Assembly: GCF_026151205.1 (NCBI RefSeq)
Contig: NC_087074.1
Location: 15,670,962-15,734,961 of the forward strand
Length of the DNA stretch: 64,000 nucleotides
Direction: 5' to 3'
Origin: Bolinopsis microptera
Taxonomy: Eukaryota > Ctenophora > Tentaculata > Lobata > Bolinopsidae
Under the pieces are notes generated by a model. That model had not been told where the DNA came from and made no database searches. It was given only the letters and a program-made list of their open reading frames with translations. Each line of letters opens with the position of its first letter. Positions within the stretch are counted from its first letter, which is position 1. Made by a program: the position numbers and the translations under genes. Positions 5,801 through 62,637 of the stretch are shown one piece after another.

Positions 5801-8800
5801 AGATAGTAGTAGTAAGTATAGTAGTACTAGTAGTAGTAAGTATAGTAGTAGTAAGTATAGTAGTACTAGTAGTAGCAAGATAGTAGTAGTAAGTATAGTA
5901 GTAGTAAGATAGTAGTAGTAAGTATAGTAGTACTAGTAGTAGTAAGATAGTAGTAGTAAGTATAGTAGTACTAGTAGTAGTAAGTATAGTAGTACTAGTA
6001 GTAGTAGTAGTAAGTATAGTAGTAGTATTGCCCCACATACCTATCATGCAGTAAGAGCGCTCCTTGTTAAAGGTCCTCCTGTACTGGAAGGGTCGAGCCA
6101 TGGCGTACAGCCTCCCCACTGCCATTAACAATACCACGTATAGTGATGCACGTGACGCAAAGTTGTGGATAAATCCCGTTACGTTGCACAGCAGTCTGCC
6201 TGAACACGTGCGTTAGTTTGATTAGGAGTTGGCATGTGCTTGACTTTAAGGTAAATTTAAATTTAACAGAATTGAACTGTCAGTATAGACGGGGAAATAC
6301 GATAATGTTGCAGTCTACTCTAAATAGTTTAAATAGCTTAAATAGCTGGGTAATTATTGGAACGCCTGTAGAAAACAGTCAATAGTTAATAGTAAGCGCC
6401 ATTAGATCAGGCAGTTTAGTTATTTAAAAGTTTGCAGTTATGGCAGTAACACGTTCCCATGAATTTAAATGGTTATTTCAGATTTGGCGAAATTTCGGAG
6501 AAATTGGCACGAACGATTTATATAATATGTGATTAAACTATTTACTGCCAAAACAAAACTCTTCCTGAAGTATTTTACCAAATTTCAAATTCAGAGAATA
6601 TATTATATACATATTTTAACACTCCTTATTTTAGGTTGAGGCGAAGTTTTGGAGAAATTCGTTTATATTCACGTACGAGCTATTATATAAAACATTATTT
6701 AACTATTTACTTGCAAAATATAACTCTCCCTGGAGTATTTACTATTTTACCTCTATAGAAGTCATTGAATTGGATATAGAATTATCAAATTAAAAAATAT
6801 ATATAAAGTACGAATTTGAATCACGAGGATAGGCCAGTTGATTGGTAGGTATTACGTACTTTCTTAAGATGCACTAGTATTGCTAGGTAACGTACTTTCT
6901 AAAGATGCACTAGATTGATAGGTAACGTACTTTCTTAAGATGCACTAGATTGCTAGGTAACGTACTTTCTTAAGATGCACTAGATTGCTAGGTAACGTAC
7001 TTTCTAAAGATGCACTAGTATCCCACTGCCTCCCCTTTAAAAGTGTCATTATCATTATAGGGACACTAAAGAGTAGTGTAAGAACGTCCACCACTGTCAG
7101 TATTGAGAAGTAGAAGACTGTCGCACTGAATCCTTGCCTTTTCAGAATCTGAAAAATTAAGTTTAGTTTTAGAGAGTACTGTAAAATCAAAATTCCTAAA
7201 CCCAAGAATTCACGTAGCTGTTTTAATCACACATTTACTACTTACCCCGTCGAGAATATATTATGCATGAATGTAGCGGTGAAAATATAATGACCTTCCT
7301 TTATTTAAGTTATCTCATATGACATATTATAATCATATGAGGGGTGTTGGCATTACCAGACAGTGGTTGTGTAAGACAATGAAACCATGGTAACCACGTG
7401 ATTTGTTTAAGAAACCACGTGTTTTATTTGAACATGTACATTCCACGTGGTCCCAGATACAGTATATCAATGTAAGGTATTGAGAGTGTCTGAGCCAGAT
7501 AAATGAGATTGATCATTAGACCATATAGTTTAGAACGACAGCTTCACACGGCGACTGATACTGGCCATTGTCATTTTATAAGTCTTAGCTTTCGCCTTTA
7601 CTGATATATTATGTTGCCTAAATGTGCACATAATTCATCCGCGCACAGAGTTTTAGTTTCTCAAAGGCAATCCCGATTTGAATATTTCGTCATTGGCAAC
7701 TGTTCCGGAGTTTTGAGGTTGACATAGATTTTTGATTCCAGTTCTTGAAACGTTTTTCTATTTTAGAATTTGTAAAAGATTCATGGTCCACCTATAGCTC
7801 GCAGTTATCACTACATCCTGCTACAAGACGATTACTGTATAACCACACTCCGATACCTTGCCCAGGATGGAGAAGTACCACCTAATAACAGGTTCCACAA
7901 CCTGCTTCACCAACAGGTCCTTTGAAGCCTGTAAAGAAGTAGAAGAGCCTCTGCAAATGTTCGATGTAGCCATCACTGGGGTACTCTCCGTCCTCCTCTT
8001 TTGCTCCATAGCGGGTAACTGGATAGTAAACAACATCTTCAGAGTGTACACCGTGGTTAAAAAGGAGGGCAGTGTGTCTCACTTGTGTCTCTCTCACATG
8101 GCAGCCTCTGATCTGGTGTATAGTTGCTTTGTCACACCTCTAACCCTGGCTGTACTTATGACGGGGAATAGATTTGCTATTGATCCTGTGAACGATGGCA
8201 AGCTGACAATGCCTATCATTCAGGTTTGAGATGATTTTATAGTGTTGTTATCAGGTTTGAGGTGGTTTTATAGTGTTGTTATCAGGTTTGAGGTGGTTTT
8301 ATAGTGTTGTTATCAGGTTTGAGGTGGTTTTTTTAGTGTTGTTATCAGGTTTGAGGTGGTTTTATAGTGTTGTTATCAGGTTTGAGATGATTTTATAGTG
8401 TTGTTATCAGGTTTGAGGTGGTTTTATAGTGTTGTTATCAGGTTTGAGATGATTTTATAGTGTTGTTATCAGGTTTGAGATGATTTTATAGTGTTGTTAT
8501 CAGGTTTGAGGTGGTTTTATAGTGTTGTTATCAGGTTTGAGGTGGTTTTATAGTGTTGTTATCAGGTTTGAGGTGGTTTTATAGTGTTGTTATCAGGTTT
8601 GAGGTGGTTTTATAGTGTTGTTATCAGGTTTGAGGTGGTTTTATAGTGTTGTTATCAGGTTTGAGGTGGTTTTATAGTGTTGTTATCAGGTTTGAGGTGG
8701 TTTTATAGTGTTGTTATCAGGTTTGAGGTGGTTTTATAGTGTTGTTATCAGGTTTGAGGTGGTTTTATAGTGTTGTTATCAGGTTTGAGGTGGTTTTATA

Positions 8801-33800: not shown

Positions 33801-36800
33801 GCTCAAATCATCAGGGTTGATTTTTGCTGATGGCGGGAATGGAACCAACAATCTCACGACTGCTGGCCCGGGACAATGCCATTGCACCACCAAGCCCTTA
33901 ATGATGAGGGAATGAAATAGGTACCAGTAACCAGAGTGCTCTACAGACTCATTACGACTTCAAGTTTAACAAGACTTTCCGCGAAAACCGTGAGAGATAT
34001 ACTTTTGAAACTTTTTTGGCTGCACTGAGTCGAATGCTTTTATGGCCTTTTGGTCAGTGTTAAGAAATAAAAATTGGCCAAGGAATAAGTAATTTAGGTC
34101 TCGAAAAATGGACCCTTAGGACTCCGACTAGGTGGTGTCAAAATCACAAATTAAATAAACAGCTTTGTCTAATGTGGCACCACTTAAGAGAAACACGGGT
34201 TCCTGCTAGTTATTATAAAACAATAGCAGGATCACGTATAACCCTAAACTGGTGTCAAGACTCAAGAGACTAAAATAATTATTACCTATTTAATTCGCGT
34301 TTTGAATGAATCCGCGACAATGGTAGTCTACTTATTCATTCTGGTAGGGGAGATGGTATCAAAAGGCAAGGGGTTGGCCTATGTCTTTCCAAAAAGGTCA
34401 GGAACTCCCTGATCTCTTATGTACCTACATCAGAGCGGGTCTTAACAGCTAGGTTACACGGCAAACACCTCAACATATCTGTTGTTGTAGCCTACGCTCC
34501 GACTGACGGTGCAGATGACGGAGAGAAAGATTGTTTTTACAACGTTTTATCAGACACGTTTGGTGAACTGCCCCGACATGATCTGAAACTGCTACTGGGT
34601 GACTTCAATGGAAAAGTTACTTCAAACAGATATGGATTCGAGGGAGTTATTGGTGGAGAATCTCTCCATAGTTCATCAAGCGACAATGGGACCAGGCTCA
34701 TGGATTTCTGTGCAGCCAATCAACTTGTTATTGGTGGAACTCTGTTCCAGCATAGAGACATCCACAAGGGTACATGGCGGTCTCCCAACGGGTTAACTGT
34801 GAATCAAATAGATCATATTTGTATTAGTGGACGATTCCAACACTCGCTACTCGATGTTAAGGTATGTCGTGGGGCGGACATTGGTTCAGATCACTATCTT
34901 GTTCGTGGACGGCTGCAAATCAAACTGCAGTCGGTAGCTAAGATCACTGCTAAAAGGCACGATGTGCCTGCTATCGAACATTTGCGAAACTCGTCTAAGG
35001 TTCAAGAGTACAACGTGGCTCTTCAGAACCGTTTTGATTGTCTGGCTAATGAGGTCAACCTTGAAGACATGTGGGATAATTTCAAGCAGACAGTCACTGA
35101 TGTCTCGATGGAAGTGCTTGGAAAGCGTCCCCGGAAGGTTAAAGAACAACACCTTTCGCAAACCTCTAAGAACTTGATAGAGCAACGGGGAATGTTCAAA
35201 CGGAGGGATCCCACTTCAAACGTCAATAGATCAGCCTACTCTAAACTTAATAAATTAGTTAAGAAAAGTTGTAAAATTGACGACAACAACTGGGCTACTA
35301 AAATAGCGACTGATCTAGAGGAGGCTTCTAAGAAAGGCCAGCAAAGGGAAGTTTGGGATAAGATAAAGAAGATTTCTGGGAAAAAGAAGAAGAAAGTGGG
35401 TATGTCAGTTAGGGATAAGGATGGTCATTTTATTACAGACCCGGACAGTCAGAAGGAAAGGTGGAAGGAGCACTTTACTGAGCTCTTAAATCCTCCACTA
35501 TCGGATGCCAATCTTGATGACCTCGATGGTGTGCCCTCACAACCGAGTTTTGACTACCTTTCTTGTTCTGATGGACCTCCTTCTAGAGATGAGATTAGTT
35601 ATGCTCTAAAGAAACTGAAGAACTGCAAAAGTGCAGGGGTTGATGAGATAACTAATGAACAACTCAAGTATGGTGGAAGTGCTCTTGTTGGCCAACTAGA
35701 GCTACTGTTTAAAAAGGTATGGGAGGAAGAGGTGATCCCTGAGGATTGGCTTAAAGGTGTTATAGTGGTTATCGGAAAGAAGGGAGACACCTCATACTGC
35801 TGCAATAATAGGGGTATAACTCTTAGGGCAACGTCTTCTAAGGTTCTTCAAATGGTTCTTCTTAAGAGGCTGGATGTTGGAATGGAGTGTCTTCTTAGGG
35901 AAAATCAGTGTGGGTTCAGACGGAACCGCTCATGTATTGATCAGATTTATTCCATCCGCACCATTATTCACAACTGCATTGAGTTTAACATTCCACTTTA
36001 TGTTAATTTCATTGATTTTAAGGCAGCGTTTGATTCCATCAGAAGAGAGTTTATTTGGTCAAGCATGAGACACTATGGACTTCCTGAGAAATATGTTAGA
36101 ATCTTTCAGGCATTCTTCAACGGAACCATGAGTGCTGTCAGGGTTAATGGTGAAATGTCTGATTGGTTCTCTGTTAATTCGGGCACTGGACAGGGTGATA
36201 TCCAGGGCCCTCCTGTATTTAATTTCTGTCTGAACTTTGGAATCTTTTTGGCCGAGGTTCACAAGGCAATCAGTCATGGTGCTGTACTGCAAAAGGAACT
36301 AAAGGGTGCAGATGAAAAAGTTATCATGGATAGTGACTACGCTGATGATCTGGCAGTGATGGACAATACTGAAGAAGGGCTGCAAGAGTCCACTGATCTT
36401 ATAGCTTATTACACCTCTTATGCTGGGTTGAAGATCAACGCTAAAAAGACACAATGCATGGCGATCAGCAAGTGTGCGTCCCAGCGACCTTACACCGAAA
36501 GAGACAGTATAAAGCTAACAGTGGAGGGAGAACCTGTTGAACAGGTCAGCAACTTTGTTTATCTTGGTGCCAACATCAGTGGGGATGGTACCATTGACCG
36601 AGATCTTGACATCAGGATCCAGCGTGCTAATGGTGCGTTCCATCAGCTTTGGAAGATATGGAACAGTCGAACTATAAGAACGCCCACCAAGATCCGTATC
36701 TACAAGGCTGCTGTTATTACTATTCTGTTATATGGAGCTGAAGTGTGGAACACAACAAAGAAGCAGATGAAACGGTTTGAGGTCTTCCATCTGACCTCCC

Positions 36801-39800
36801 TGAGAAGAATCTTGAAGATAAAGTGGTTCTTCCATGTCTCCAATGAAGAAGTTCTCAGGCGTGCTGGAATTAAGTCTATCGAAACTTTCATCGGTGCGGC
36901 TAGACTAAGGTGGTACGGACATGTTGTCAGAATGCCAGAGACGCGGATCCCCAATTTCTTACTGGATTGGAAACCAAACTATGGAAAGAGACTGAGAGGA
37001 CGACCCCGCAAAGGCTGGATGGCCTGTGTACTCGAGGATGCGGCTGAATTTACAGGTGTCGATAACATCAGCAGAGATGCAGTAAAACAGTTGGCTCTAA
37101 AGCGAGTGGAATGGAGGAACATGTTACGCCGTAGAAGAGATGTGTGTGATGCAGGCCACTCCAACGACTAGGAGGAGACCTCTTCATGTAGCATGTATGT
37201 ATGTATGTATGTTTTGACACCACTTGGGGATCCAAATTTTGGGATCTAAAACTCTAAATTCTAAAAAAGTTTCAGTTGTATATCTTTCACGGTTTTTTTT
37301 CTCGCGTTAAAGTTGATGCCGTGATGGTACGGATCCATCCATTCATATCTATATAAGTATATACCTATATATTTATACATAGTAAGATATCAAAGTTCAA
37401 AATATCTGAAGGCAATACTCCTAAGAACTTTATTGGTAGCTGCCTCAAAGTTGAAAGATCTTCAAACAGATACAACTAAATATTCTCAAATGACTTGCAT
37501 TTAACTCTATTAAGAGCAATTACCCTCATGTCAAATCTAACACACTAAATAAACCCCTGTTAGTATTGAAAGCTTAGCAGCTGACTCGAACCTGCAAACA
37601 TATTTAATAAAATTCACTGCCCGAGATTTTCAATTAACCAGGTTAGACGATGTTGATTAAACAGAAAATATAATTGCGATGATGAACATCGTCATCAGAG
37701 TGCACACAAAGTCACATACATCATTTAATTATTATTTTCGATCGCTATCACTGAAAATTAACGTGTTGAATGCAAGGTGTCTTTACCAGTACCACAAGAT
37801 TATTATATGAACTGCTTGTAAGAGAGTAAGAGTATATTGATATGTACGTGTGCTAATACAGTACGTGTACTCATATAATAAGCGGGCTCGTATATTAATA
37901 TAATCTTTAAATTGGCAGGTAAGCTACAGTAAATACGCGATATCATTGAAGGTGGGTCACGTGATTAAAGGGGGGGGGGGGGGGGGTGGTGATTGGGTGA
38001 AGTGGTATTGTTATTTGAATTTGGTAAGTGGTGTGCAATTATGAAGTTCAGTGACAAGGGTATATGACATGAGGGCGTAGGACAAAAAGGGCGGACGACA
38101 AAAAGGGCGGACGACAAAAGGGCGGACGACAAAAGGGCTGACGAAAAAAGGGCGGACGACAAAAGGGCGGACGACAAAAGAGCGTTACTTTTTTAAGAGG
38201 TGGACACGAGGGCTGTACTTTCTTACACATGAAACTCACTTTAATATGGACAATGGACATGAAACTACGTACACTTGGATCCTTGTGAATATTAATCGAT
38301 ACTATAAAATGGGGAACCATACCAGTAAACTATTTCCTTCTTCCTTCATAACAAAGATATAATTGCCAAAAGATGTGATGGGAGATGCAAATGCTCAAAG
38401 AAAAGTGTGCTTTGATTAATTGTTGCAACACCGTCAGTTATACACGTCCACCTAGAAGAAATAAGTCCTTGAAATCATCAGCAAGTACGAGCTTGCTAAA
38501 TCACTCTACAGTCAATCTTCAAGATTGTTCTAAAGAGGCCCCCGACAGTTGAAACCAACAATCGAAAAACTGTCTCGATCACGTGATATGACCGTACAAG
38601 GGAGTTAGTCTAATTTCTCGTTAGGGTTAGGGTTTCAGCATATGCTTTTGTTAAGGATTGGGTTAGGGTTATGATCAGATATGAGGGTTAGGGTTTCGAA
38701 GCCCAGATAATGCGGAAATTACTATTCGCGAGAGCGCAAAAACAGGGTGTGGTGTGATAGCTTAAGTCTACGGACTTTGAAACAACGTTCTGCATCCTCA
38801 ATGTGATGATTCATTATAAAGACCAATATGAGCACATAGCTCCTATCAGAAGCTGAGATCTTGGAATAAGTGCAAAATTGGTACTTGCGAAAGCGTAAGA
38901 AAGATATGGCCACATAACTCAACTAAATATAAAATATGATTAAAATCGAGATGGAAGTATTTAATGATACCAGAAGTTGAAATCTTCTCTAAAGATTATA
39001 ACTGAAAAAATACCGATCTCGCAGCCTATATAGAAAATTGACCTGGCATATCATTATCATCTTAGATAATCTTTTGAAATCTTTTAAAATCTTTTAAAAT
39101 CTTTTAAAATCTTTTAAAATCTTTTAAAATCCTTTAAAATCTTTTAAAATCTTTTAAAATCTTTTAAAATCTTTTAAAATGTGATTTTTGAGATTATTTA
39201 ATTTTTTTAACGTTTTGTTAACCTCATATTTCATGAAGAACAAAGGCATAAATCAAAATATACTAAAGCAGAACTTTTTTGCGTGACACCTGTGCTAAAA
39301 AAATCTTTTAAAATCTTTTAAAATCTTTTAAAATGTGATTTTTGAAATTTATTCATTTTGTTAACGTTTTGTTAACCTCATATTTCAAAAACAAAGGCAA
39401 AAATTAAAATTCTAAAACATAATGTTTTTGCGTGATGCACCTGTGTTAACGGGTGATACTCGTAAAATATCTGTTCCATATATCCGACTCGGCGCGCGTC
39501 CTGGTAGGTTGTAAACCTACAACACCTGTGCCAAGTTTTAGCTCCTGGTATGGTTGTGGCCAGTCTTTTCCAAAAGGTTTACCTTTTTTTAGTTAAAGTT
39601 AAAATTCTACATTTCCAGTTTTTTTCTTCTTGTTCATCTCCAGCAATCCAGAAGCTCTATCACATGTTAATATTATGTGAAAACTGGGAAAATTATTTTT
39701 AGAGAAACATTTATTTTAACGAGGCTGAAATTTCTGAATTTTCAGTGACTTCCAGCTTGTAGATTCGCCACTGCTACAGATATGGATACCAGCTGCAATG

Positions 39801-46290: not shown

Positions 46291-46730
46291 TAGAAGAACC
46301 GGAAGATGTTTACCGTGGTTTCTGAGCGCAAGATCAAAGATCAATATCAAAGATCAAGGTGCGACATTAAATAACAAGGTGCGATATTTTGGCTCCTAAA
46401 AAGCTCCTCTCAATGTTTTGTATAAGAGACGAAGTGAACACTGTTAGTCAAGTACCGAAATCGAAATAAGATAAATAAGGACAATAACTTCAGTATTTCG
46501 TTTCATTTGAGAAAGATAGCAAAGGACCTGTTTGGTTTTCAATTCTAATTAAAGAAATAAACCGTAAAATCTGAGGATAAGTCTGCAGCTGGTTTGTTTT
46601 TAAGAAACTGATAAAGTTATGTGATTTTACTGATCTTTTAATATCATGGCTAGTTCCATCATGAGGGCAATGGCCTCGCTGTTATACCTGGAGAAGATCC
46701 AGAATTTAATCTTATTTTAATTGTTTATTA

Positions 46731-47285
46731 AGCATAGTTAACTTTACTAGTTTATTAGCAGAGTTAACTTTACTAGTTTATTAGCAGAGTTAACTTTACT
46801 AGTTTATTAGCAGAGTTAACTTTACTAGTTTATTAGCAGAGTTAACTTTACTAGTTTATTAGCAGAGTTAACTTTACTAGTTTATTAGCAGAGTTAACTT
46901 TACTAGTTTATTAGCAGAGTTAACTTTACTAGTTTATTAGCAGAGTTAACTTTACTAGTTTATTAGCAGAGTTAACTTTACTAGTTTATTAGCAGAGTTA
47001 ACTTTACTAGTTCATTAGCAGAGTTAACTTTACTAATTTATTAGCAGAGTTAACTTTACTAGTTTATTAGCAGAGTTAACTTTACTAGTTTATTAGCAGA
47101 GTTAACTTTACTAGTTTATTAGCAGAGTTAACTTTACTAGTTTATTAGCAGAGTTAACTTTACTAGTTTATTAGCAGAGTTAACTTTACTAGTTTATTAG
47201 CAGAGTTAACTTTACTAGTTTATTAGCAGAGTTAACTTTATTAGTTTATTAGCAGAGTTAACTTAACTAGTTTATTAGCAGAGTA
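46731..47285. repeat. 26 bp minisatellite upstream of cathepsin D
   Basis: About 21 copies of a unit starting GCAGAGTTAACTTTACTAGT, with a few single-base variants. It ends about 380 bp upstream of the cathepsin D start codon. Confidence 0.95.
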
Positions 47286-47662: not shown

Positions 47663-50600
47663 ATGTTCCGAGCAGGTTAGTGGTTCCACTTATTTCGCAA
47701 GTTTTTACCACAAAAAGTCGTTATAATTATATCTCAGAGTGATATCTCTACAATTGCAATCTACAGGAATTGTGTTTTGTCTCTGTTAGATTGTCTTTAT
47801 GAAATAGTTAACATTTCAGTGACTATACTTCTGCTGGTCACCTTAACATCTGGCCTAGTCCGGTTCCAGCTCAAGAAAACCCGCTCCGTAATGGACGACC
47901 TTGTGGCCTCCATGAGCTTTGAAGAAATAGAGAGATTAAACGATCACACCAAGAAAGAGGCTTTAAAAGGTAAATAATTTCAGTGACCAGGTAGTTTTAA
48001 GAAGCGAATGAGTTATAAATGAAATAAAGTAATAGAGATATGTTACTTGAAATCTTAAAGACAAAAATCTAATTTACGCAACAAATGGGAGGATCAAACA
48101 CATCTTTCTAATAAATCTGTCAACTTGTAGCGGGTTTGAACGTATTACTATTTGTAATCCCTCAATTTAGGTATGTTCATTAAAATATCGCGATCGTTTC
48201 CCTAGCTGATCAGATATTTTTCATTAACTTACTCGGCAGGCAAGACAGACATAGTGCTAAAAGACGTAATGAATGCACAGTATTTCGGTGAAGTCGGTAT
48301 CGGAACACCTCCACAGATGTTCAGAGTGATATTTGATACGGGCAGCAGTAACCTCTGGGTACCCAGCTCTCATTGTGGTATTCTTAACATTGCCTGCAGG
48401 ACTCACAGGTACTATCTGCTCTATCAAATTTTTCTTATTGCAAATTAAATCTCCATTTTACGGTCAGTTTACTATTTTCTAGTACTATTCTTAAGACAAA
48501 CAGCACATATGATATAGACAAAGATATTGTGTTCGGTCCGAGTCAATCTCGATAAATACCTCTGACGGCAGAGCTTCCGCTTCCGAGCTCGTATTGCGAA
48601 GGGGAGGCCTGCCTTTCGAGATCGCATTACAAAGGGGAACCCTCGAGTCCAAAATTGTATATCGAATGGTAGGTGTGGACTTCGAAAACCGAAAAAATAT
48701 TTTCGGCTCATACTGATCAGGGTAGCATGAAACATGGACAAAAGTAGTTTCCAGAAAAACTTTTAAAATTTTTGACTTAAAAAAGTTTCGGCCCGAGTTA
48801 TTCGATTGATACCTCTAAAGGAAAAGCTCCCGCATCGAGCTCATATTGCGAAGGGCAGGCCTGCCTTCCGAGATCGCATTACAAAGGGGAACCCTCGAGT
48901 CCAAAATTGCGTTTTTTAAACCCTTGGGTAATACTCCATTTTATGCCATTGGACCCCCCCCCCCCCCCCCCCCCCCGATCAAATATTAGCGGGTCTACCG
49001 GTCTATCTAACACACTGATAATCCCTCGTAGGAGATACAAGGATTCTTCTTCATCGACCTTTCAGAAAAACGGAACCACTTTCTCAATACAGTATGGAAC
49101 AGGGAGTCTCACCGGTAAGGGAATTATAAGTGTTACGAAATGTATAAGTTAACGGAAATTTCGCGTTTTAATTAAATTTCTCAGGCATGAGCTGTCACGG
49201 CGCGTTAATAATAATTCGCTGCTTCACTGGATACCACTGGTTACCACTGGCTACCCCTGGTTACCAAGACAGCATGACTGGTTACATATACCACTGGTCA
49301 CCCCTGGTTACTATGACTGGTTAACACTAGTTAGTGTTACCCCGGCCCTGGTTACCACATATTATATACAGTGTACAGGGTGGCCAAGAAGTAACTACCC
49401 ACACACAACCAACAACCCTCTAATAACTCACGTAATTCGTATCAGAATTGCTTAAAAATTTCAGAGAATATACATAGATATGGGTCAAACTTAGATTTCC
49501 TGATTGGAACCTGCTCATATCCTGGCTCCTTAATAAAACTCACCTTGGCCGCAAGAAAAAGTACCTTGTTATATATTACCTGGGAACCTCAGGCTATCAT
49601 GTTCATAAACATAGAATAGAGATTCGGCGGAATGACAGGCTGAGCGTGGCCCAGTAAGTTATATAGTCCCAATCTTACAACTACCTGCTACAGTGGTAAT
49701 AACCGGTAATACTAGTACTAGTACGTGCATGGTGTTCCCACCTACGAGTGAAAACTAGACCCGATAAACTCTAATGGACTTTTTTCCGTTTACAGAGCAC
49801 TCAAAATCTATTAATTCTCCCTAGCGGAATATTCAACGTTGCCCCATTATTTCGCGACTTTTATTGGCTGACCCCTGCCCAATTAATTGTTTTAAATGGA
49901 CGCTGCCACCCTGCATATACAATACAGATATATTTGCAGAACGAGACAATAGCGGTCGTTATATTACCATGGCACTCTACTGTTCCAGTATGCTGCAGCA
50001 TATCAGCCATGCCTCCTGTACTTAGCTCTTAGCGACTGGTACTATATCTGCATTCTGTAGTACTGATTGTAATTAAATAGATAAATGCTAACAATATCAT
50101 GGGAAAATATCTGCAGCACTATAGTTGGAAAAAAATTAAAAAGACAGAGATTTCGTGATTTTGCCAATTCAGGCTCCTTCCGTAGAAGGAACAGGATTAT
50201 AAAGCACATTCAGTAGTCCATTTGGAACACAAGCAATCATCACATATCATAAAATGTATAAACCGTCTGTGACAAGTCGCCTTGTTAACGCAAAGTATGA
50301 GCCTTGAAAGTTGAGCCCCCACTCTTTCTTAAAAGCACTTTCCAACTACAAAACCAGCTCCTGGCACTATATTTCTAGGTTCTGACAAAACCAAATAATG
50401 ATGCTATAAGCCCACGTTTTGTATCTTAACTTTTATTTCGTACTATAAGTATAAGTTAATAAATGGTTTATTAGTACAAGTCGGTAAACATATCTTAAAC
50501 ATTTGTAAAACTTGTAGTGGACAAAAAATTAAGAGTAATAAGTATTGGGGAAGTAAAATAGCTAAAATGGTGTATTAGAGTTATAGCGAATAACTGAACG

Positions 50601-53600
50601 GTATATTATGGGTAACGCCGTTAACTTTGCGTAACGATATAACTTTAACGGTATTAACTTTACGTAAAGGTATATAAGAGTTAAGTTTAAATACGCTAAT
50701 ATGTCAATCAACATTCTCGTATGTTAATAATAATATATCAGACGAGAAAAACGCCATCTTAGGACACAAGGAGAGTTTCAGTTAGGACTCCTCGGACTGC
50801 ATTAAATCAATTCCTTCTGTAACGTCATCAATAAACATAATAGATTTGTAGTGTTGTTATTAGTTTATCAATAGTATCGAGTATTTCTATTTTCAGGATA
50901 CATCAGCAAGGACAATGTTAAGATGGGCGATATGACTATTAAAGGCCAGCTGTTTGCAGAGGCTATTAAGGAGCCAGGATATACTTTTGTTGCGGCCAAG
51001 GTGAGTTTTATTAAGGAGCCAGGATATACTTTTGTTGCAGCCAAGGTGAGTTTTATTAAGGAGCCAGGATATACTTTTGTTGCGGCCAAGGTGAGTTTTA
51101 TTAAGGAGCCAGGATATACTTTTGTTGCGGTCAAGGTGAGTTTTATTATGGAGCTAGGATAAACTGTTGTTGTGGCCGAGGTGAGTTTTATTAAGGAGCC
51201 AGGATATACTTTTTTGCGGCCAAGGTGAGTTTTATTAAGGAGCCAGGACATACTTTTGTTGCGGCAAAGGTGAGTTTTATTAAGGAGCCAGAATTTATCT
51301 TTGTTGCGGTCAAGGTGAGTTTTATTTTGGAGCCAGGATATACTGTTGTTGCGGCCAAGGTGAGTTTTATTAAGGAGCCAGGATATACTTTAGTTGCGGT
51401 CAAGGTGAGTTTTATTAAGGAGCCAGGATATAGTTTTTTAGCGGCCAAGGTGAGTTTTATCAATTTATTTTGTATATAGAGATTATTATTCTTCTACCCA
51501 CACATTTTCCTGATTGTTTAATATAATCTAAAGGTTTTAAACAATACATATGAGATCTAGGAGCATGATATCCGATCCAGAGTGCAAACTAGTAGTATTA
51601 TTAAACTTATGATTGGTTGGCATGTGCCTCAATGGGATATTACATAAATGTATATATTGTATACCTTACGAGACATATTTATGCTCGACATAATTCCGGT
51701 GACCTAAATGATTTGGGAACGAAAATATGGGAATTTCTTCCGAAAACCGTCACATTTCGTACCCCAAATTAAATCATGGTATTTGGAGATTTTTTTCATC
51801 TCCTTATTTTGCAAAAATGAAACCCATTATTTGAGAAAATTAAATACAAAGATCTTCTCTGATCAGCTGTTTCATCTTGTAAACAATCTCTCCAGAGCCT
51901 TTGAAAGTTAGCCTCAACTTAACTTATAATCCTCCAGAGTGTATAGGAGACCGACAGTGTTTTTTATCTTCCACTACTCCCGAAATTTCACCGCCGTGGC
52001 CAATAAAGTAGTGATAGAGCTTGCTTATTTTTAATGGAACGTGTCCAAAATCATTTTAAAAGCAATTCATGATCGAATACTAGTGTCCATTAATTGTTTG
52101 ATAAATCACATTTATAACTTACTAGGTATATTGATAAGTTGAAAGTAAATCAATAAAGTCATGATTAAGGAAAATACGTGAAAAAATAATGATGGTGACC
52201 TAAATTTTGGTAGTCCGAAAATATGGAGTTTTTTTCGAAAAATCACCGACTTTCGTACCATTTAAATATGCCTCGTATTTCGTAAGGTATTATGATACTC
52301 ATATATTCAGACAATATCAGCAAATATTATATGTATCGTTCATATCACACTAAATATAAGAATAACATGAGTCCATACAAAAGAAATAGTTTATTCTATT
52401 GATCAGTCATCTTATTATTCCACTCATGTTTATTTTTAATAACAAATTAATAATAATCTTGAAATACTTACAGGGCGGTAGAAATCGAAGTATTTTGTTG
52501 GTAAGCACTGCGCAGAGAATTGTGTAGATATAAGCCTTAAGCTTAGAGTGGCAGTGAAATATTGTAATAAAAATCCTCATTTAATTAATAAACCTGGTGG
52601 CGGGTGGCCGGTAAAAGATAGGGATTAAAATGAATGAGCTTCAATCTAGAATACCTAACTACTTATAGCTTTATAGGAAAATGAAATGGCTAAGCAGTGT
52701 TGAAATTATCAATCCTAGTGAAAAATCTCTTAATTAAAATTGCAATGAAATATTAAAATAAAAACCCTCATTTAATTATTGAACCTGGTGGCGGGTGGCC
52801 GGAAATAGATAGGGATTAAAATGAATAAGCTTCAACCTAGAATACTTAACTACTTATAGCTTTATAGGAAGATGAAGTGGCTAAGCAGTGTTGAAATTAT
52901 CAACCCTAGTGAAAAATCTCTTAGTTAAAATAAGCTGTCCAATTTGTGTTCATACCACGTCACACATATTAAATCATCTAAATGCATTTTATATATCCTT
53001 TTAAAAGATCTATTCACCCCTTCTAATGGATTCAAAGAGGTAAGGTGGGAATTTACTCATAATGTGAATTTTATAAATTCCGAGAAATTACAGCTGCTTT
53101 TAGTTTTTCTCGTTAATGGCATCTTTACTCTAAAAACAAGGGAATTGTAGTATGTCTCGTAGAAATACTGTAGTTGAAAAAGCATTAGCAAGAAAGAACA
53201 AAGTACCTACGCAACTGCTTCTTATCAAGATTTTTCAAATTTTCAAAGTTTATCCCGAAATTATGTAACAGCAATAATAAACTGTAACTTAATAAAGTAT
53301 AAATACTGAAATAACGAATGCTAACCCAGACGTCTGACAACGGAAGTTAGACTGTGCACCAAATTTGAGAATAGCATTAAAATGTTGCAGTAAAGAGGAA
53401 AGATGTTTAGAGAATTTCTGATGATTCTGTGTATGCGACCATGGTCACTGGTCACGTGACAAAGAGAAAAGAGCGAAAATGTGTTCACAAGCCTCGCAGT
53501 ACGTCAATAAGACTCTGAAACGGTCTTGTTGAAGCTTTGACGAATCAATACTTCATAGATTTTGAAGCAAGCTGTACTAGGTTAAGTGTGCAACATGATT

Positions 53601-56600
53601 ACATCTAGATTAAAAAGTTAAAAGGATGAAGATGGGCGGTGCTCAGCCACATTTTGCTACTCGTTCTGTTTAGTAACCATTTAAGTAGCTTTAGAAGGTC
53701 ACAACTCCTCACAATAAATGATCCATTATAATCGATTAAAATCCTCATCATGTCCATATTTTAATCGATTATATTTATATTTAATTTGGCATACATTACA
53801 TGTGCCGGGGAATTAATAAAACCTTATAAATGATAAAATGGTGATTTTTCATTGTTTGATGCGGAATTGATTTAATTTTTGGACGCATTTGATTGCTGGA
53901 TCACTTAACAGTTAACAGACTTAACACCTAAACGCGGTCACGTGACTCCCGACTTGTAATTTTCAACCAACTTGCTACCTATGATTCTTAACATCCCCAA
54001 TTGTTTAAAAACTTGGTATTCCCGTGTAGGAAAAACTGTCAGCTATTAGATTAAATAGGTAGAAATATTATTCGAAGACCAGATAATCGAGGGCGCTCCA
54101 GCTAGTCCACATGTACAATAATTGTACATATGTCTGTGAACTCAAGAGCAGTGCATGCTATAGCTACTACACTGGATTAATAATTCTGGAAACGCGCTTA
54201 TAATCGCCTATTTGTTACGGTAAGAACACCAAACTCCTCGGCCTCTGGCAACAAAGAAGGCAGCAACGTATGATCTTGAGCGGTGTATTGCTTAATGATT
54301 TATAAAAATTAGAAAAGCGCTTATAAGCGCTTATAAATATAATCGCTTCCCCATCCTTTGCACCCGCTAATTGAAACCGCTAATTGAAAACGGATTAGAA
54401 ATGACGAAGTGTATCTCGTTAACAAAATTGACTGGGTGATTATGTGACACCGTGACACGACACCTTAATTGGACAGTCTTAACGAATCCCATAATGTTTA
54501 ATGGGGTGGTTAACGGGGTGACCTTTTCACGTGATCAGGTATTAGGTAAGCCAATCACCTGATCACACGTAATGTCAATGAATAAACTCGTTATGCTTCG
54601 TATCTCGGCCATCTGAGAAAAATCTCTATTTTTTTCAGGACAAATGCAATTCGAATGGCGAAACACAATTCAATAAAATTTAGCTCGATCCGACTATCCA
54701 AACTATCAAATAAATGCAAAAATGAACCTTCATTTGAAAAAAATGAACTCGAATATTTTTCGATTTAGCAAATTCCTCGAACCAGTGCAGTGGTGGTACT
54801 GGTAGTAAGTCGTACCAGAAAGAATTATTTCAATTGGTCACTCAGTGACTGAGCTATTAAGGCCAACGTATGTCCAGTGACTTTTGGCCCACCCTGTATT
54901 TTAATAGATTACTTAAAAATTATTAATTACTCATGAGCTGTTAGTAGACGTTTATAAAACCTGCATTTTTTTTAAAGTGCTTCCTGACCTCTCATTTACC
55001 GATTTTAATAGACAATAAGAAAATGTCACCTGTGTACTGTGTGGTAACCTGCCAAAGTATTATAATACTTTTACAGAGTCTGAACATGTTTATTTTTCTC
55101 AGAATTAGATTATTCAATGTATGATATATTGAATATTCTTTAAAACATCGCATTTAACCCTTCTCCAGTTATTTGATGTATGATATTATTAATTATTAAA
55201 GGAAGATTTGTTTCAGTTTGATGGTATACTCGGGATGGGATTCCCTACTATAGCTGTTACTGGAGCTGTTCCTGTCTTTAACAATATGATTGATCAGAGT
55301 CTTGTAGATGAGCCTGTGTTCGCGTTCTGGCTCAATCGCAAACTCGACGTGAGTGTTATAGTTTCTTATATTATCTTTATAGTTTATTATCTTATCTATA
55401 TTTTAATCTATAATCTTATAATACTGATCCTTCTACTATTTATTATAAAATCCTCCGGGACGTTATACAGATAATACTTTCGTACTCCTGTCGAGCTGCA
55501 CAAATAACCTCAAATGTTCATTCATAACCACGCGAGCAGCTCTCACAGTGCGAAGGTATAAAATGAAATGAAATGAAATAATGTGCTTATATCCCGCCCA
55601 TATGCTTAGCAGCTGGCACAAGTGCCAGCTACTAACCATGTCAGAGCGGCTCTAAAGGGTGAGTGGAAAAGACTAGCATGAAAATGAATATGACAATGTC
55701 GTAAATAATTTAAATTAGTCTAGGATTTTGTCCTCACAACAAATAATACCACTTCTGATATAATAGCGTCTATTCAAATCGTCCTTTGCCTTCTGTTTCA
55801 TTTCCAATACCAGCAGACGGTGTTCGGTTTGCTTCTCAGTTGACCGATATGGAGAAATGAAGACTGTTTTGTGGTGCTGACTCAGTTTCAGTTTCTTCGA
55901 TTTCAATAATATCTCGTGAACATTATTGGACATTGGTGTTTGTGACCGAAATTTTGACAGGTCTGGTCTTGTCGGCTAATCTCCTTCCAATCCTGACAGC
56001 TTCATAGCGTGGTTTTACTTCGATTTGTTCAAGCAGTTCGTCTACTTTATCGGATAGTTTCTCATCATCTGTCTCCATTAAACCAAGCACGACCGAATTC
56101 CTACTGCGGTCCTCTTTCGATACAGCACTTTGAACTACATTTTTCAAGCTCCGTTCTGTCAGTACAGTTTCCGGCGGGACCTTCGAAACAGCTTTACTGT
56201 ATGACCTGATCTCAGCTTGTACACTTTCCTGAACGGCAGATTTTACGGTGGTCTGAACAGATTCCAACTGCTTTGATTTGCCCTCAAGAAGTTCACTCTG
56301 CAGTTTAATCACCGAAGTTTGTGACCGAATAAGAGAGCTCTTCAACTCCTCCACATCTTCTTTCATTTTGACAGCTTCTCTGACAAATTGTTTCACATCT
56401 CTGTACACACTGTACAATAACTTTGACATAACTTTCTTAGTCGGTTTCTGACTTGACTCTTGCGAGCAAGCGACCCATGAGAACGATGGGTCCTACTGAA
56501 GCCCAGCTGATTTGCATCGAGTCCACTATTCCAGGACGAACCTGCTGGTACCATTGCTGAGCAATGGCAGTTGGGTCGGGGGCGCCCCTCCTAAGAATGA

Positions 56601-59600
56601 CTGCCGTAGATCCCAGGGATTGCATACTTATATTTGATATGCGTTTATACTCACTCCTTGCTAAGCCATTAATCTTACACACAACCACAAGTCGATGCCG
56701 AGGAGTTAATTTTTTGGTGTATTTAGTGTAACTGGTATATATTGGTGACGTGCATAAGGCTTAGTAATGTATTTGCTCGTCTTATCGGATGTAACGGCAA
56801 TGTGTACACGTTATTATATATATTGTGTGTATTGTGTGTTTGTTGCAATTGGGGTGGGTTAATTGGAAGCGTCGTCACGGTTTCTACTCACATACACCCG
56901 CCTCCGAGAGAATTATTCTCAGAACTAAGTGTAGTTTTCGATTTGTTGTAATTGGTGTGGTTTACTCTGCTGTTTCCACACAGCAGGGGGGGATAAAGTT
57001 AAACGATGCAGGGCTGGGGCTCGAACCAGCGATCTAACGATCGCTGGCCGCGCTGCCCGACACTACACCACCAAGCCCAAGGCTAATGGCAGAGTCGGGA
57101 ATCGAACCTGGTACCTCAAGCAATGCCAGGCGGATTTACCAACTGAGCCACCAGCTCCCCGAAGAGAGCAACTGTTATCAACACACAAGCTAAAAATCTA
57201 GATTAATAATATTAATTATCATACTATAATTTCGCCTAAAGGGATGTTATGAAATGAGACACAAGCCACTTCCTCAACCGGAGCAATTAAGCAATACTGC
57301 AGTGTTCAGCTAGATGAATCTTGCCTCACGTTGTAGGCCCGCCGTGCACGAGTGCGCGGCTGTATCGTGACTTTCACCCCGTGAAACGACAATGGGTGTC
57401 ACGACGTGATACAAGATGAATCATGTAAAATTTGCTGACAACGATGTGGAATAATACATAGCAGTGAAGGTCGGGTGCGGTGACAAAAGTTACTGCTTAA
57501 CGGGGTATTTGAGAAAAACCTGAGGTTGAAACCAGCTTAAGTTTAACCCTCCACTACGTCTATATTAAAATACTGGATATCAGTAAGTCAGTAGTCCTCT
57601 AATAATGATATGAAGTATTTATATGTACTTCTTTGATCAACAGGAGGAGAATCCTACTTTACCACTCTACTTTAACAGGGAGAAGATGGAGGAGAACTGA
57701 CTCTAGGAGGTATGGATCCTGCTCACTACACTGGTAACTTTACCTGGGCTCCAGTCACACTGTCTGCCTACTGGGAGTTTAAAGTGGACGGGATGATGTT
57801 TGGAGACAGACCCCTCTGTGCAGGTGAGATCAGGGGGATGTTGTCGGTCTCTGTTTGGAGACAGACCCCTCTGTGCAGGTGAGATCAGGGAGATGTTGTC
57901 GGTCTCTGTTTGGAGACAGACCCCTCTGTGCAGACTCAACCTCTCTTAAAAAAATTTAAAATAAAAAAAAAAGATCTCGGAGTCTAGAGGCTATCGCTAT
58001 ACTATGTCAACTAGGTCAAGGGACTTGTGTATGAGAGTTCTCGCGAGGGTTGAAAGAATAGTATCACCCTTTATTGTAACTGCAAAATTATAATCGCAAT
58101 TCAATAACATATAAGGTGTTGGATGATCGAAGGATTTGTAAGCGATTTAAATATCTAACTGTGATTTACCGTCTAATATAATTAATTAGTACTGGGAGTT
58201 TAATTAATACTAAAACACTACAATGGTTTTCGGTTAAAGTAGAAGTAATATCATATTGATCCTCAACCTCATTTTGGAAATGAGGTGTTGCATAATATCT
58301 CAATATCATTATTCACTTCGATCGCCACGACACCAGGCGAAGTAAAAGTATTAAAGTATCGTATGAGTCGAATAAAATATCATCAAATAAAGAAAATCAC
58401 GCATTGATGTAAGATAAATCACTTAAACTCAAGATCTTAGGGGCGGGAAATGTGTCACAGAAAAAACAAACTAGTCAGAGTCTCCTCGAATGTCGAGCCC
58501 CCAGCTGACCGTTACATCACGGCGCTGGGTTTGCTCTTTCTTATACCCACGTGCTGCAGATGCCTTATCGGACGTTATTTAAACAGACATTGCTTGAACG
58601 GACATGATTTTGAACGGACATTAAAATTAACACTTAAGTCTAAGAGGCTATCTACTTAGGACGTCCGCCAAAATTTGAACGGACAACGAACTAACAATTT
58701 TGTCATCTGAAATTTTGCTAATTTTAAGACACCGAAAATTTGTATAAAATAATAACAATACCTTCTGAGGTGGGTGTAACGCTATTGCTGATACGGGAAC
58801 CAGTCTGATGACTGGACCTACCCACGAAGTAGCTCAGATCTACGCAGCAGCTGGAGCTACCCCAGTTAGCGGAGTTGCTATCATAGACTGTACCAAGGTT
58901 CGTTAAATCACTAAGTTAAATCACTAAGTTCGTTAAATACACTTAATTATACACTAGAGAAAAAAGAAGAACAAATATTTACTCTAATTTCACGCTGTTT
59001 ATAATCATACAAATGTTAAGTTTTGTAAATGTTACCTCGGCTACCGGACAACTGAACCCAATTTGGACTTTTCCTAGACAGGGTAGCTTGGGAAAATAAT
59101 TATAAACCCAATCAGACTACCTAATTAACTTTGAAACGACAACTGAACCCAATCGTCACTATAAATCACTAACAGTAACAGTTTAACAGGTTTCCAAATA
59201 CCGTTCTAGTTTAGCTGCTGCCTGGTTTCTAGTGCTATAATTTCGGTCTGTTGAGGTTGGTGCTTCGGAGTGGTTGGCAGATCCGGACTTATCTGCTCGT
59301 GATCGTTGGACAATTCTGGCAAGGGATTCTAGTTTAGGTAGTACCACGTTGATTTCGGATGGGCATGTAGATAAGGCTTCGGTGAGGAGGTTTTGGGTTG
59401 CTGAGAGGTGTTGGTCGGCAGCTTTCCGCTTCAATTCTGCTCTGAACTCTGCTTTCTCAGCTACTAAGTTGTCAGGGTCGTGGGAATGAGGTTTGGCACC
59501 GCTGGCCAAGGACTGATCTCCATGGTCAAGGAATACATGAGCAGGACATTTCTTGGTTCTGTAATTCTGGCATCTCCAAGTAGAGGTAGTAGGGGTATCT

Positions 59601-62600
59601 CGATCCTTTCGTACTAATAGATGACAAGGTCTCAGGTGTCTTTCGATCGCGAGATCTGATCTAACAAGCTTACGTGTTCAGTGTTCACGAAGCGTGCCGA
59701 AAAGGATACGATCCACTGCTCCTCAAGCATCGAGACCCAGGGCTCAAGATCTGAACCATGGCAGGCCCTCCCAAAGCATCAGGAGTCACGAGATCGGAGT
59801 CAAGTAACCTGAGCCAAGTATCCAGCGTGCTAATGGTGCGTTCCATCAGCTTTGGAAGACATGAAACAGTGGAACTATAAGAACGCCCATCAAGATCCGT
59901 ATCTACAAGGCTAACTTTCAAAGCTAGACGGACACGTTGCCAGAATGCCAGAGACACAGGTTCCCAATTTTTTACTGGATTAGAAACCAAACTATGGGAA
60001 GAGACTGAGAGGACGACTCCGTAAAGGCTGGATGGCTTGTGTTCTCGAGGATGCGGCTGACAGGTGTCGATAACATCAGCAGAGACGCAGTAAAACAGTT
60101 AGCTCTAAAACTAGTGGAACACCGTAGAAGAGATGTGTGTGATGCAGGCCACTCCAACGACTAGGAGGAGACCTCTTCAATCTTCATGTAGCATGTATGT
60201 ATTAATATTTTACCGGGGTAAGCACAGGGCTCCAATGCTCTAAATTACAGTGGTCATGATCTATCCTATAGTGATAATGAGCACAGTCCCCTGCGAAGAA
60301 GGAGAACCTGAAAATCCGATCGTTGGGTTCAGTTGTCGTATTTCCTTGGGTTCAGTTGTCGTATTTTCAATTTGGGTGCAGTTGTGATATGACCTGGGTT
60401 CAGTTGTCGTTTTGGGATTTAAACTGATTGGTCACCCAATTAAGCTGATTGGGTGCCTGTTAACTGCGTGGGAACTAGGTTCAATTGGGTTCAGTTGTCT
60501 GCCACCCGTTACCTCACTATTATTTTCAGATAAAGAGCCTACCAATGTTTACTATTATGATCGGAGGGACTAAGTTCACACTCACTGCAGACCAATATGT
60601 TCTCAAGGTTAGTAGAACTGGTCCCGGGCGGGACCCTAGTTCGGATGGCTGATGGGGCCGCTAAACTCAGAAAATCGTGCGGACATTTCCCCACCTCGTA
60701 TAGAAACGAGAAAAAAATTACGAATAGAAGAGAGAGTGGAACAGCAAGATAAAACCACAGGACATTTAAAGGTATATTAAGTAAACGTGGTGATGGCACG
60801 TAATATGAACAAACGTGATACAACCTCGGAACCAACCCCCTCACTTTACGTCACAGTTAACAGTATAGTACTTAAGCTAATTACTAAGGTAGTGATTGTT
60901 TAACTCCTAGGCTGGTTATCAATATCATATAACTGCGACTTTACTAATGGTCTGTTGCCTGAACAGCGGTTACATCGTACAAGTTCGTAGTCGTACTGAT
61001 AACCTAATATAGACAATATATAAATGGTCTGACAATATAATGGTATGTCACCTGAACAGCGAATATACCTCGTACGATCAGGTGTTCTTAAGTTTTGTTA
61101 TTTGACCATTCTGCAAGTAAGGTTAATGCCTCTTATTACCCCTATGGTTCGCTTTACTCACGTAAACAGTATACTCCTGGAGATGCGGAATGGCGTGACT
61201 GATAATGGTAACGCCTCTTTATAGTTATTTTTGGCCTGATAACTGATCAAATAAAGGGACTCGTTAAGGACCCTCGGTAGTCAAGTTATAAAGACTTATT
61301 AGTCTCTGTAACTCAGTCAAGTTATAAAGACTTATTACCACCTGACGACTTGGCTTCTGTTCCACCTGCAACTCCCAGTTTAGGTATGGTAAGTGGTTAA
61401 GGAAATCGTACGTAAAACGTCTATCCAGGTGTGTTATTGAAATTTGGAAATTTATTTTATTTGGAAGTTATTGAAATTTGGAAATTTCACCCTCCCATAA
61501 GATATCGTAGAATTTTATCATTTATTTTAAAAATGCAGTTTTGTTTCCCTTCTGCGGAAGAATAAGTTAGCTGCAAGAGTTCTCTTGAGCATCAGCTCAA
61601 ATTGCCACCTTATCGCTTTATAGACTAGATAGATTAATTAATAGACGGCATCGAATCAGCGGCAGCTTTGTGATAGTATTGCGGACTGGTTACTGAAATC
61701 CAACTGATAGTTATATTGGTATGGTCATCTTGAGCAGAACAAAACGAATCACAACGTTAATGAAATTCAACGCAGAACGTGAATCAAAATGGAAACTTTA
61801 GAGCTTTGAAGTTGGAGTGTTCAAAGCAAAGATATAACGCAGGACTAGTTCCCCTAACATGTTCATGCCATTTGCTCTCATCTCAGAAATCCATTAAAAC
61901 ACATTATAAAGTGACGTTTTTCTCAAATTTGTTTAATGGTAGTTTCGGTATAATATAGCAGCTTTAGAAAGCTGGGGGCATATAACAACTAGCTGCTGAA
62001 GACGATAAACACATATAAACTGAAAACTTCTGTTTGTTTTAAAATTAATCCCCTGAAGCTTGAACGAATTCAAGAATTTTGTATCAATACAACAGTTCTC
62101 GAGATGGAAGCAGAAATCAAGCGACAAAAAACTGCACAAGAGTTCCGTCACACTAAAATTTAAAGTCCAGTAAAAACATGGAAATCTTGCAAGAAATTTA
62201 ATTGTTCATTCATGTTTTATCTTTTTTAAACGACGATCCTAAAGCGGCTCCAAAATCACAATCATTACTTATAAACGATTGAAAAAAACTTTCAATGAGC
62301 GTATTCACAACGCAAAACGATCAATTTTTCGCGATTTGTATTATAGAAACAACCCTATCGTACAGCTATGAAATATAATACCATTTAAGAATTTACCAGG
62401 AGAGATTGATTTATTGATAAGTTGATTAATTAAATAAATTCAGCAACTGAGACTTGAACCACCTCTCCCCACCAGGTAACAGAGCTAGGACAGACTCAGT
62501 GTCTCCTCGGCATCACTGGTATGGACATCCCCGCACCTGCTGGCCCTCTCTGGATCCTGGGGGATGTTTTCCTAGGTCCTTACTACACTGTCTTCGACAT

Positions 62601-62637
62601 GGGCAATAAAAGGGTCGGGTTTGCTGCCGCCGCTTAA
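47663..62637 (+). CDS. CTSD-like: Cathepsin D-like aspartic protease, 10 exons, 387 aa
   Basis: Secretory or lysosomal pepsin-family (A1) endopeptidase. Exons are 47663-47675, 47820-47969, 48240-48408, 49032-49114, 50897-51000, 55217-55348, 57679-57823, 58770-58897, 60530-60607 and 62476-62637. All junctions are GT-AG and the phases close exactly to 387 codons plus a stop. A hydrophobic signal peptide ([18 protein letters not shown]) precedes a propeptide from about residue 19. The first catalytic Asp is in [11 protein letters not shown] (Asp87), the flap Tyr in QYGTGSL (Tyr132) and the second Asp in ADTGTSL (Asp273). CatD hallmarks include the CGILNIAC disulphide loop, [10 protein letters not shown], and [18 protein letters not shown] in place of the proline-rich loop. 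Sequons are at Asn124 and Asn237. For exon 2, acceptors ending at 47789, 47807 and 47819 are all in frame; the last (TTTCAG) is chosen. Exons 5 and 7 each have a tandem array over their donor. Confidence 0.93.
48490..48976. repeat. Duplicated repeat segment with poly-C end in cathepsin D intron 3
   Basis: A block with GAGATCGCATTACAAAGGGG and AACCCTCGAGTCCAAAATTG occurs at 48595-48660 and again at 48830-48910. Between them is a segment shared with the hAT MITE at 22830-22930 (TATTTTCGGCTCAT, GTAGCATGAAACATG). A run of 23 C (48954-48976) closes the block. Probably a rearranged relative of that MITE. Confidence 0.7.
49376..49913. mobile_element. Possible mariner-type MITE in cathepsin D intron 4
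   Basis: Begins TACAGGGTGGCCAAGAAG and ends GCTGCCACCCTG, short imperfect inverted termini of the CAGGGTGG type. There is no transposase and the inner sequence differs from the 33.3 kb MITE. The rest of intron 4 (49914-50896) shows nothing recognisable. Confidence 0.45.
50970..51465 (+). repeat. 45 bp array multiplying exon 5 end and splice donor of cathepsin D
   Basis: Eleven copies of a 45 bp unit encoding [15 protein letters not shown]. The unit contains the last ten codons of exon 5 plus GTGAGTTTTATT. AAG/GTGAGT-type donors occur at 51001, 51046, 51091, 51136, 51181, 51225, 51270, 51315, 51360, 51405 and 51450 (the sixth spacing is 44). Copies 2 and 3 are nearly identical to the exon. 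The frame stays open through the fourth donor; copy 5 has TAA. Donors 1-4 are therefore all compatible with exon 6, giving 0, 15, 30 or 45 extra residues just before FDGILGMG. Confidence 0.95.
52555..52930. repeat. ~186 bp direct tandem duplication
   Basis: Two adjacent copies share AACCTGGTGGCGGGTGGCCG, ACTACTTATAGCTTTATAGG and GGCTAAGCAGTGTTGAAATT in the same order, with about 5-10 percent divergence by eye. Confidence 0.85.
54393..54898 (+). mobile_element. Mariner-type non-autonomous element, right end (copy B)
   Basis: Near-identical to 21946-22446, including TGGGTGATTATGTGACACCG and the terminal ACTTTTGGCCCACCCTGTA. The left terminal repeat is absent in both. Confidence 0.77.
57011..57078 (-). 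other. tRNA-like module A
   Basis: Minus strand: starts GGGCTTGGTGGTGTAGTG and contains GGTTCGAGCCC (B box). The anticodon arm region forms a long hairpin (CCAGCGATC, loop GTTA, GATCGCTGG) unlike a true tRNA. Related to 33826-33897. Confidence 0.6.
57088..57160 (-). other. tRNA-like module B
   Basis: Minus strand: GGGGAGCTGGTGGCTCAGTT, with an A box in TGGCTCAGTTGG and a B box in GGTTCGATTCC. The acceptor and T stems do not close properly, so it is probably a tRNA-derived repeat and not a functional tRNA gene. Confidence 0.6.
57799..57933 (+). repeat. 55 bp array multiplying exon 7 end and donor of cathepsin D
   Basis: Two full 55 bp units and a 25 bp partial third. Each carries TTTGGAGACAGACCCCTCTG then TGCAG. 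Donors GTGAGA occur at 57824 and 57879; the third copy has lost it (GCAGAC). Using the second donor shifts frame and reads AGG TGG GTG TAA in exon 8, truncating the protease before the second catalytic Asp. Confidence 0.93.
57934..58769. other. Rest of cathepsin D intron 7
   Basis: No repeat family or coding motif recognised. A GAAGTA-type inverted motif near 58250-58330 and repeated GAACGGACAT units (58565-58690) are the only local structure. Confidence 0.5.
59183..59650 (-). pseudogene. FLYWCH-type zinc finger fragment
   Basis: The minus-strand frame reads [20 protein letters not shown] then [10 protein letters not shown] and [12 protein letters not shown], matching the W-x-C-x-x-Y...KCPA...H-x-H pattern of FLYWCH zinc fingers. 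It continues with the usual downstream region ([31 protein letters not shown]) to a stop at 59183. No start or flanking exons were found. It may be a captured gene fragment or part of a MULE-like transposon. It lies antisense in cathepsin D intron 8. Confidence 0.7.
59815..60200 (+). mobile_element. 3' remnant of the RTE-like LINE
   Basis: Corresponds with several deletions to 36615-37195 of the LINE at 34.3-37.2 kb. Shared blocks include CCAGCGTGCTAATGGTGCGT, AAGATCCGTATCTACAAGGC and AGGAGGAGACCTCTTCA, and it ends at the same GCATGTATGTA tail. Stops and deletions make it non-coding. Confidence 0.9.
60608..62475. other. Cathepsin D intron 9
   Basis: AT-rich intron. Short direct repeats such as AGTCAAGTTATAAAGACTTA (twice, 61272 and 61316) and GTCTGACAATATAATGG-like blocks were seen. 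No gene or mobile element recognised. Confidence 0.5.

Follow-up and report, generated by a model that had tools for sequence, protein, structure and literature searches.

A minisatellite across a splice donor of a ctenophore cathepsin D-like gene, with similar arrays at other exon ends

In the genome of the ctenophore Bolinopsis microptera, the end of one exon of a cathepsin D-like gene is repeated in tandem together with the 5' splice site that follows it, and the locus poses the question of which of these donors is used and whether the repetition serves the gene or is tolerated by it. We analyzed the surrounding 64,000 nt (positions 15,670,962 to 15,734,961 of contig NC_087074.1, assembly GCF_026151205.1), hereafter the window, in whose numbering coordinates are given unless a contig is named. 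The array belongs to a known class of boundary-spanning repeats, and it is the recurrence of donor arrays in a ctenophore genome that is of interest.

The cathepsin D-like gene and its exon 5 array

Ten exons (Table 1), with GT-AG boundaries at every intron, were joined into a predicted protein of 387 aa that carries DTG motifs at residues 87 and 273. A profile search placed the Pfam Asp family (PF00026) on exons 3–10, in order and over positions 1–314, exon 9 matching only at E 0.09, and the frame that contains exon 2 matched no Pfam family. The profile along the chain and the two D[ST]G motifs identify the predicted product as a pepsin-like aspartic protease, and exon 5 has cathepsin D, cathepsin E, and saccharopepsin among its PDB relatives. 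The Asp matches and the joined exons bear out the name cathepsin D given in the initial annotation of this DNA; the gene is intact, and "cathepsin D-like" is a reasonable name for it.

TRF reported the exon 5 array as 11.1 copies of a 45-bp unit (score 826). It contains 11 GTGAGT hexamers, with nine of the gaps between them measuring 45 nt and one 44 nt; the hexamer is preceded by the end of the exon sequence as AAG/GTGAGT at 10 of the 11 donors and as GAG/GTGAGT at donor 5. The site positions and the TRF result thus confirm the array as described, in which the end of exon 5 and its GTGAGT stand 11 times in tandem. Downstream of the last donor, GTGAGTTTTATCAATTT leads into ordinary intron sequence; within the array, GTGAGTTTTAT is followed by TAAGGAG, which is exon sequence, after the same 11 nt.

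Joining each donor in turn to exon 6 yielded predicted proteins of 387, 402, 417, and 432 aa from donors 1–4 and, from donors 5–11, a premature stop after residue 226, at the TAA of copy 5, so that the earlier claims that the first four donors keep the frame and that the first stop lies in copy 5 both hold. The inserted segments do grow in in-frame steps of 15 residues as had been stated, but the third of them (copy 4) ends in ...VAVK, not ...VAAK. The donor positions had been given correctly, and the limits of exon 5 needed a small correction, to those in Table 1. Copies 2, 3, and 4 differ from copy 1 at 1, 0, and 1 of 36 nt, respectively, in agreement with the reported near-identity of copies 1–3; among the 10 units that lie between donors, pairwise alignment scores range from 34 to 44, with units 1–3 at 43–44. 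A DNA search of the assembly with the array matched only the array itself and one inverted fragment, and no second allele was found in this search, which skips very common words.

Table 1. Features of the cathepsin D-like gene and its repeats, in positions of the window
Feature	Position	Strand	Basis
Cathepsin D-like aspartic protease gene	47663–62637	+	10 exons joined into 387 aa, two DTG motifs
Exons 1–5	47663–47675, 47820–47969, 48240–48408, 49032–49114, 50897–51000	+	
Exons 6–10	55217–55348, 57679–57823, 58770–58897, 60530–60607, 62476–62637	+	
Intron 4 element of 43 bp, inverted, matching the junction of the repeat (with AAG/GTGAGT) at 42/43	49517–49559	−	DNA search and alignment
45-bp tandem array across the 5' splice site at the end of exon 5, with 11 donors (GTGAGT)	50964–51460	+	TRF and sequence
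Donor 1, probable true 5' splice site of the 4216-nt intron 5	51001–51006	+	Profile continuity and two insert-free paralogues
Donors 2–4 (51046, 51091, 51136), in frame and open, adding 15, 30, and 45 residues	51046–51141	+	Exon joining
Donors 5–11 (51181, 51225, 51270, 51315, 51360, 51405, 51450), all downstream of the in-frame stop (TAA) in copy 5	51181–51455	+	Exon joining
Short repeat, starting 8 nt past the end of exon 6	55356–55401	+	TRF
Second array across a donor (end of exon 7 and GTGAGA), 55 bp x 2.5	57797–57933	+	TRF and sequence
Short repeat, starting 1 nt past the end of exon 8 and enclosing donor GTTCGT	58898–58956	+	TRF and exon joining

We consider it probable that the exon 5 array is a "mirage," that is, a boundary-spanning minisatellite of which donor 1 is mainly used and the further copies are tolerated. 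Donor 1 is most likely the ancestral and main site, because in the ungapped spans of the Asp match exon 5 ends at about profile position 105 and exon 6 begins at about 106, which leaves no gap in the family at this point, and because no insert interrupts two paralogues (L016 and L017), which read TAKYDGIIG and TAKFDGILG here. Contig C8 holds a third paralogue, with a frame that is open over Asp profile positions 10–315. The array would have arisen by duplication of a 45-bp piece consisting of the last 34–37 nt of exon 5 and the first 8–11 nt of intron 5, the limits of the piece being blurred by a shared TAT. The first duplication probably proceeded via a 3-nt match between the exon (GGCTATTAAGG) and the intron (TTTTATCAATT), and we infer this step, a tandem duplication via the shared TAT, from the sequence. 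Slippage or unequal exchange may then have amplified the repeat. Intron 5 would be removed from donor 1, with copies 2–11 riding along as intron sequence that is rarely or never used, and the array is probably devoid of a dedicated function. However, where two donors are of equal strength, the intron-proximal one is reportedly often preferred, which would favor the unproductive downstream donors and speaks against such a reading; passages of PMC8724738 are silent on this preference.

In addition to the exon 5 array, the gene carries another that runs across a splice donor, that of exon 7, with two donors and a third, partial copy that has no donor; use of the second of these donors (57879) would shift the frame and lead to a stop after residue 286. 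Within this gene alone, two of the nine donors lie within arrays, which is not significant (P 0.19), and none of the nine acceptors does.

Donor arrays elsewhere in the genome

We searched both strands of the whole assembly for three copies of AGGTRAGT with 20–50 nt between them, counting overlapping windows. This pattern was found in 2921 windows (1479 + 1442), compared with 205 (95 + 110) for the reversed motif; as the single motifs number 19259 and 15648, respectively, the excess after division by single counts is about 11.6 fold, against this one reversed control. Another permuted motif gave 1093 windows and its reverse 252, and since such controls vary, the excess of donor arrays is best stated as 2.7–14 fold by windows, which is a noisy measure because windows overlap and long arrays are counted repeatedly. 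When the spacing was restricted to 44–46 nt, the donor motif gave 866 windows, which fall into at least seven separate sites on C1 (a contig of 26.2 Mb) and at least one on C2; the 26 windows of the reversed motif all lay in one 9-bp satellite cluster on C1. For an acceptor motif (TTTNCAGG), the triple pattern occurred in 1530 windows versus 205 for its reverse, with 57431 and 30407 single occurrences (about 4 fold after division), an excess that we leave uninterpreted because many of the rows listed are simple repeats.

Among the matches listed for both spacing patterns, which for the 20–50 nt pattern cover the plus strand of C1 up to 2.5 Mb, we distinguished 12 donor arrays and fetched all of them. 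An open exon frame directly precedes the first donor in seven of the 12 (L001, L002, L003, L007, L009, L010, and L012), and four of these seven exon-end frames have homology, two of them weakly: the frames of L001 and L002 resemble sushi domains (E 0.024 and 0.0026, both under the Pfam cut-off), that of L009 reprolysin/ADAM22 (Pfam 6e-4, just under the cut-off; PDB 1.3e-9), and that of L003 a dynein heavy chain (PDB 1e-6, no Pfam match). The frames of L007, L010, and L012 matched no Pfam family, and a further search with L007 likewise gave nothing of note. The remaining five arrays do not follow a donor. Three of these lie, by eye, at or near acceptors of opposite-strand frames: in L005 (5812–5946, minus strand), the unit holds the acceptor and the start of a copine-like exon (Copine 1.5e-4, under the Pfam cut-off), and L004 and L008 lie near acceptors of frames that gave, respectively, a Pfam methyltransferase match at 0.012 (under the cut-off) and nothing. 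No exon was seen at L006 or L011.

The periods of the seven exon-end arrays are 34, 54, 57/51/55, 44, 44, 23, and 23, and together with the 45 and 55 of the cathepsin D-like gene they follow no multiple-of-three rule; in L002, moreover, the first unit contains, by eye, an in-frame TGA. L001 (C1:401054, period 34) and L002 (C1:428574, period 54) sit at the same end of neighboring sushi-like exons, and their differing periods suggest recurrence at homologous donors. One run, in L012, comprises 113 donors. That similar arrays stand at the exon ends of other genes points to a general tendency of this genome rather than to an adaptation of cathepsin D.

Variation within the arrays had suggested constraint on the donor, since in the exon 5 array GTGAGTTTTATT is constant after donors 1–10, with GTGAGTTTTATC after donor 11, and the rest of the unit is variable. 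In six other arrays, the donor hexamer is constant in three and more variable than the remainder in three. Because this comparison set is mixed and was chosen by its donor pattern, we make no claim of selection on the donor and reject this candidate.

Taken jointly, the arrays might reflect a donor-specific process in which the 5' splice site itself seeds the birth of arrays and amplifies exon ends in this genome, for example, through transcription-linked breaks or RNA-DNA hybrids at AG/GTRAGT; we regard this as possible but doubtful. From such stacks of donors, new exon ends, shifted introns, and isoforms that depend on copy number could then arise. The cathepsin D-like gene, which has two arrays and an inverted element that could pair with donors, would be one example.

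Alternative roles for the repeated donors

The initial annotation had proposed that the exon 5 array acts as a graded splicing switch, in which donors 1–4 would all be used to give isoforms longer by zero to three 15-residue segments; such a switch might also be adjusted through the number of copies. Consistent with this, the four donors are identical in nine core positions, the frame across them is open, and copies 1–4 differ from copy 1 by at most one base in 36. Furthermore, excerpts of a study of human internal tandem repeats (PMC2812944) indicate that repeats at exon–intron boundaries are often partly retained: for 66% of the intron modifications there was also a transcript in which the repeat stayed exonic, so that alternative donor use is possible. 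However, seven of the 11 donors would lead to a truncated protein, both the Asp profile spans and the two insert-free paralogues run unbroken across the insertion point, and the periods of the sister arrays extend beyond multiples of three, with the 55-bp array of exon 7 out of frame. In addition, the lancelet mirages are described with undisturbed splicing (PMC3087553, PMC3902484). The proposed switch is thus unsupported, and we judge it improbable.

An alternative in which the array offers new exon ends and so lets the intron position move, as an intermediate of intron sliding or intron gain, has a published precedent in the model for lancelet globins (PMC3087553, in part) and a possible trace in the paralogues. 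Intron 5 of the cathepsin D-like gene follows AAK in phase 0, and the corresponding intron of L016 and L017 lies 16 nt further on, within the G codon before MG, in phase 1. The present array, however, contains neither a new acceptor nor a copy of the FDGILG stretch and so fails to explain the 16-nt shift and the change of phase. In the pieces fetched for the two paralogues, TRF placed no array at an intron boundary and reported one short repeat, in L016. We consider intron sliding very unlikely to account for this array.

The inverted fragment in intron 4 might act through RNA, by pairing with an array donor, masking it, and shifting or slowing splicing. Its complementarity is 42/43, and the predicted duplexes of 49516–49558 with donors 1–10 reach −60 to −75 kcal/mol (−39 with donor 11), compared with a mean of −16 for shuffled sequences. 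Against such control, an inverted companion is not a general feature of these arrays, as we found none for eight others (L001–L005, L007, L009, and L010) within the fetched 10-kb pieces and none for the exon 7 array within the window. The inverted copy holds the unit junction, so it would stem from the array once a first duplication had taken place, and it can be a by-product of array instability; moreover, the loop would span about 1.4 kb, and intron 4 may leave first. A regulatory duplex therefore appears highly improbable. Finally, although the copy number rests on the assembly, the array is extremely unlikely to have been made or inflated there, because its copies bear distinct substitutions and one 1-bp deletion, which is not plain assembly stutter, and arrays of other units occur at other exon ends.

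Relation to known boundary repeats

Mirages have been described in lancelets, at Adh3 and the globins BflGb6 and BflGb9, with units of 10–72 bp in Adh3 and 150–160 bp in the globins; in that report (PMC3087553), RT-PCR and Adh3 data suggest regular splicing, array length differs between haplotypes, the Adh3 array is somatically unstable, and a model of intron gain is put forward. PMC3902484 adds PGBD5 and TnC, the imperfect PGBD5 repeats being said to be unlike other mirages. As in the lancelet cases, a minisatellite duplication across an exon–intron boundary has here left many copies with splice signals. In the cathepsin D-like gene, tandem repeats in the size range of minisatellites (45 bp x 11.1 and 55 bp x 2.5) span the ends of exons 5 and 7 of a real gene and keep splice signals in many copies (11 GTGAGT at exon 5, two donors at exon 7), and the phenomenon recurs in other genes (seven of the 12 donor arrays and one acceptor-side, copine-like array). 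The host, by contrast, belongs to another phylum, and RNA behavior and length instability are features of the lancelet arrays, whereas the present array is known from the sequence of a single assembly. A lancelet origin of the genome, considered because mirages are known there, was set aside on one segment of one gene: an iGluR S1 segment matched best the PDB molecule ML032222a iGluR (E 8e-31; entries of 256 residues), whose ML name is that of a Mnemiopsis leidyi gene, then the kainate-like receptor 4zdm, from another ctenophore (4e-21), and after these NMDA receptors (5e-16). With the full-length frames of two iGluR genes, kainate and AMPA receptors ranked first, and a search for COX1, meant to show the mitochondrial code, gave no match.

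The human internal tandem repeats mentioned above were found within segmental duplications, with a mean of 30 bp x 4 and some at exon–intron boundaries (PMC2812944, in excerpt). They resemble the present array in having minisatellite-length units that alter gene structure, but were found via recent paralogue comparison with transcript support. In the model of Rogers, as cited in part of PMC3087553, introns are gained when an AG/GT proto-splice site is duplicated in tandem. The unit here, with AAG/GTGAGT, would similarly offer a boundary in each copy; however, no new intron is evident, and the copies lie within one existing intron. In earthworm metallothionein, repeats are reported within an intron, and the excerpt of that paper (PMC12783039) holds no boundary case. 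Among the matches listed in our literature search, no ctenophore report of such arrays appeared, and PMC12221973, a paper that draws on genomes of ctenophores, contains neither "tandem repeat" nor "minisatellite" in its main text.

If the recurrence holds, splice-site minisatellites are not a lancelet oddity but also recur in a very distant branch of animals. The arrays would provide a panel of genes, with two to more than 100 near-identical competing donors, for working out the rules of donor choice, and the same panel would allow a role of such duplications in moving or creating introns to be tested directly in RNA reads. The implication for the cathepsin D gene is small, in that the repeat is probably tolerated.

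Several further features lie in or near the window. The last exon of the cathepsin D-like gene is duplicated downstream (96% over 462 nt) at C3:15739813 (L018), about 4.9 kb past the end of the window, and an open frame within intron 8 (59183–59677, minus strand) matches a FLYWCH zinc finger (E 1e-6). A 953-aa open frame at 34310–37171 has, by eye, the look of a reverse transcriptase, with DYADD, and is probably a LINE. TRF also reported two minisatellites that are both large and regular, one of 31 bp x 37.9 at 8220–9394 and one of 26 bp x 21.8 at 46716–47284, just 5' of the gene.
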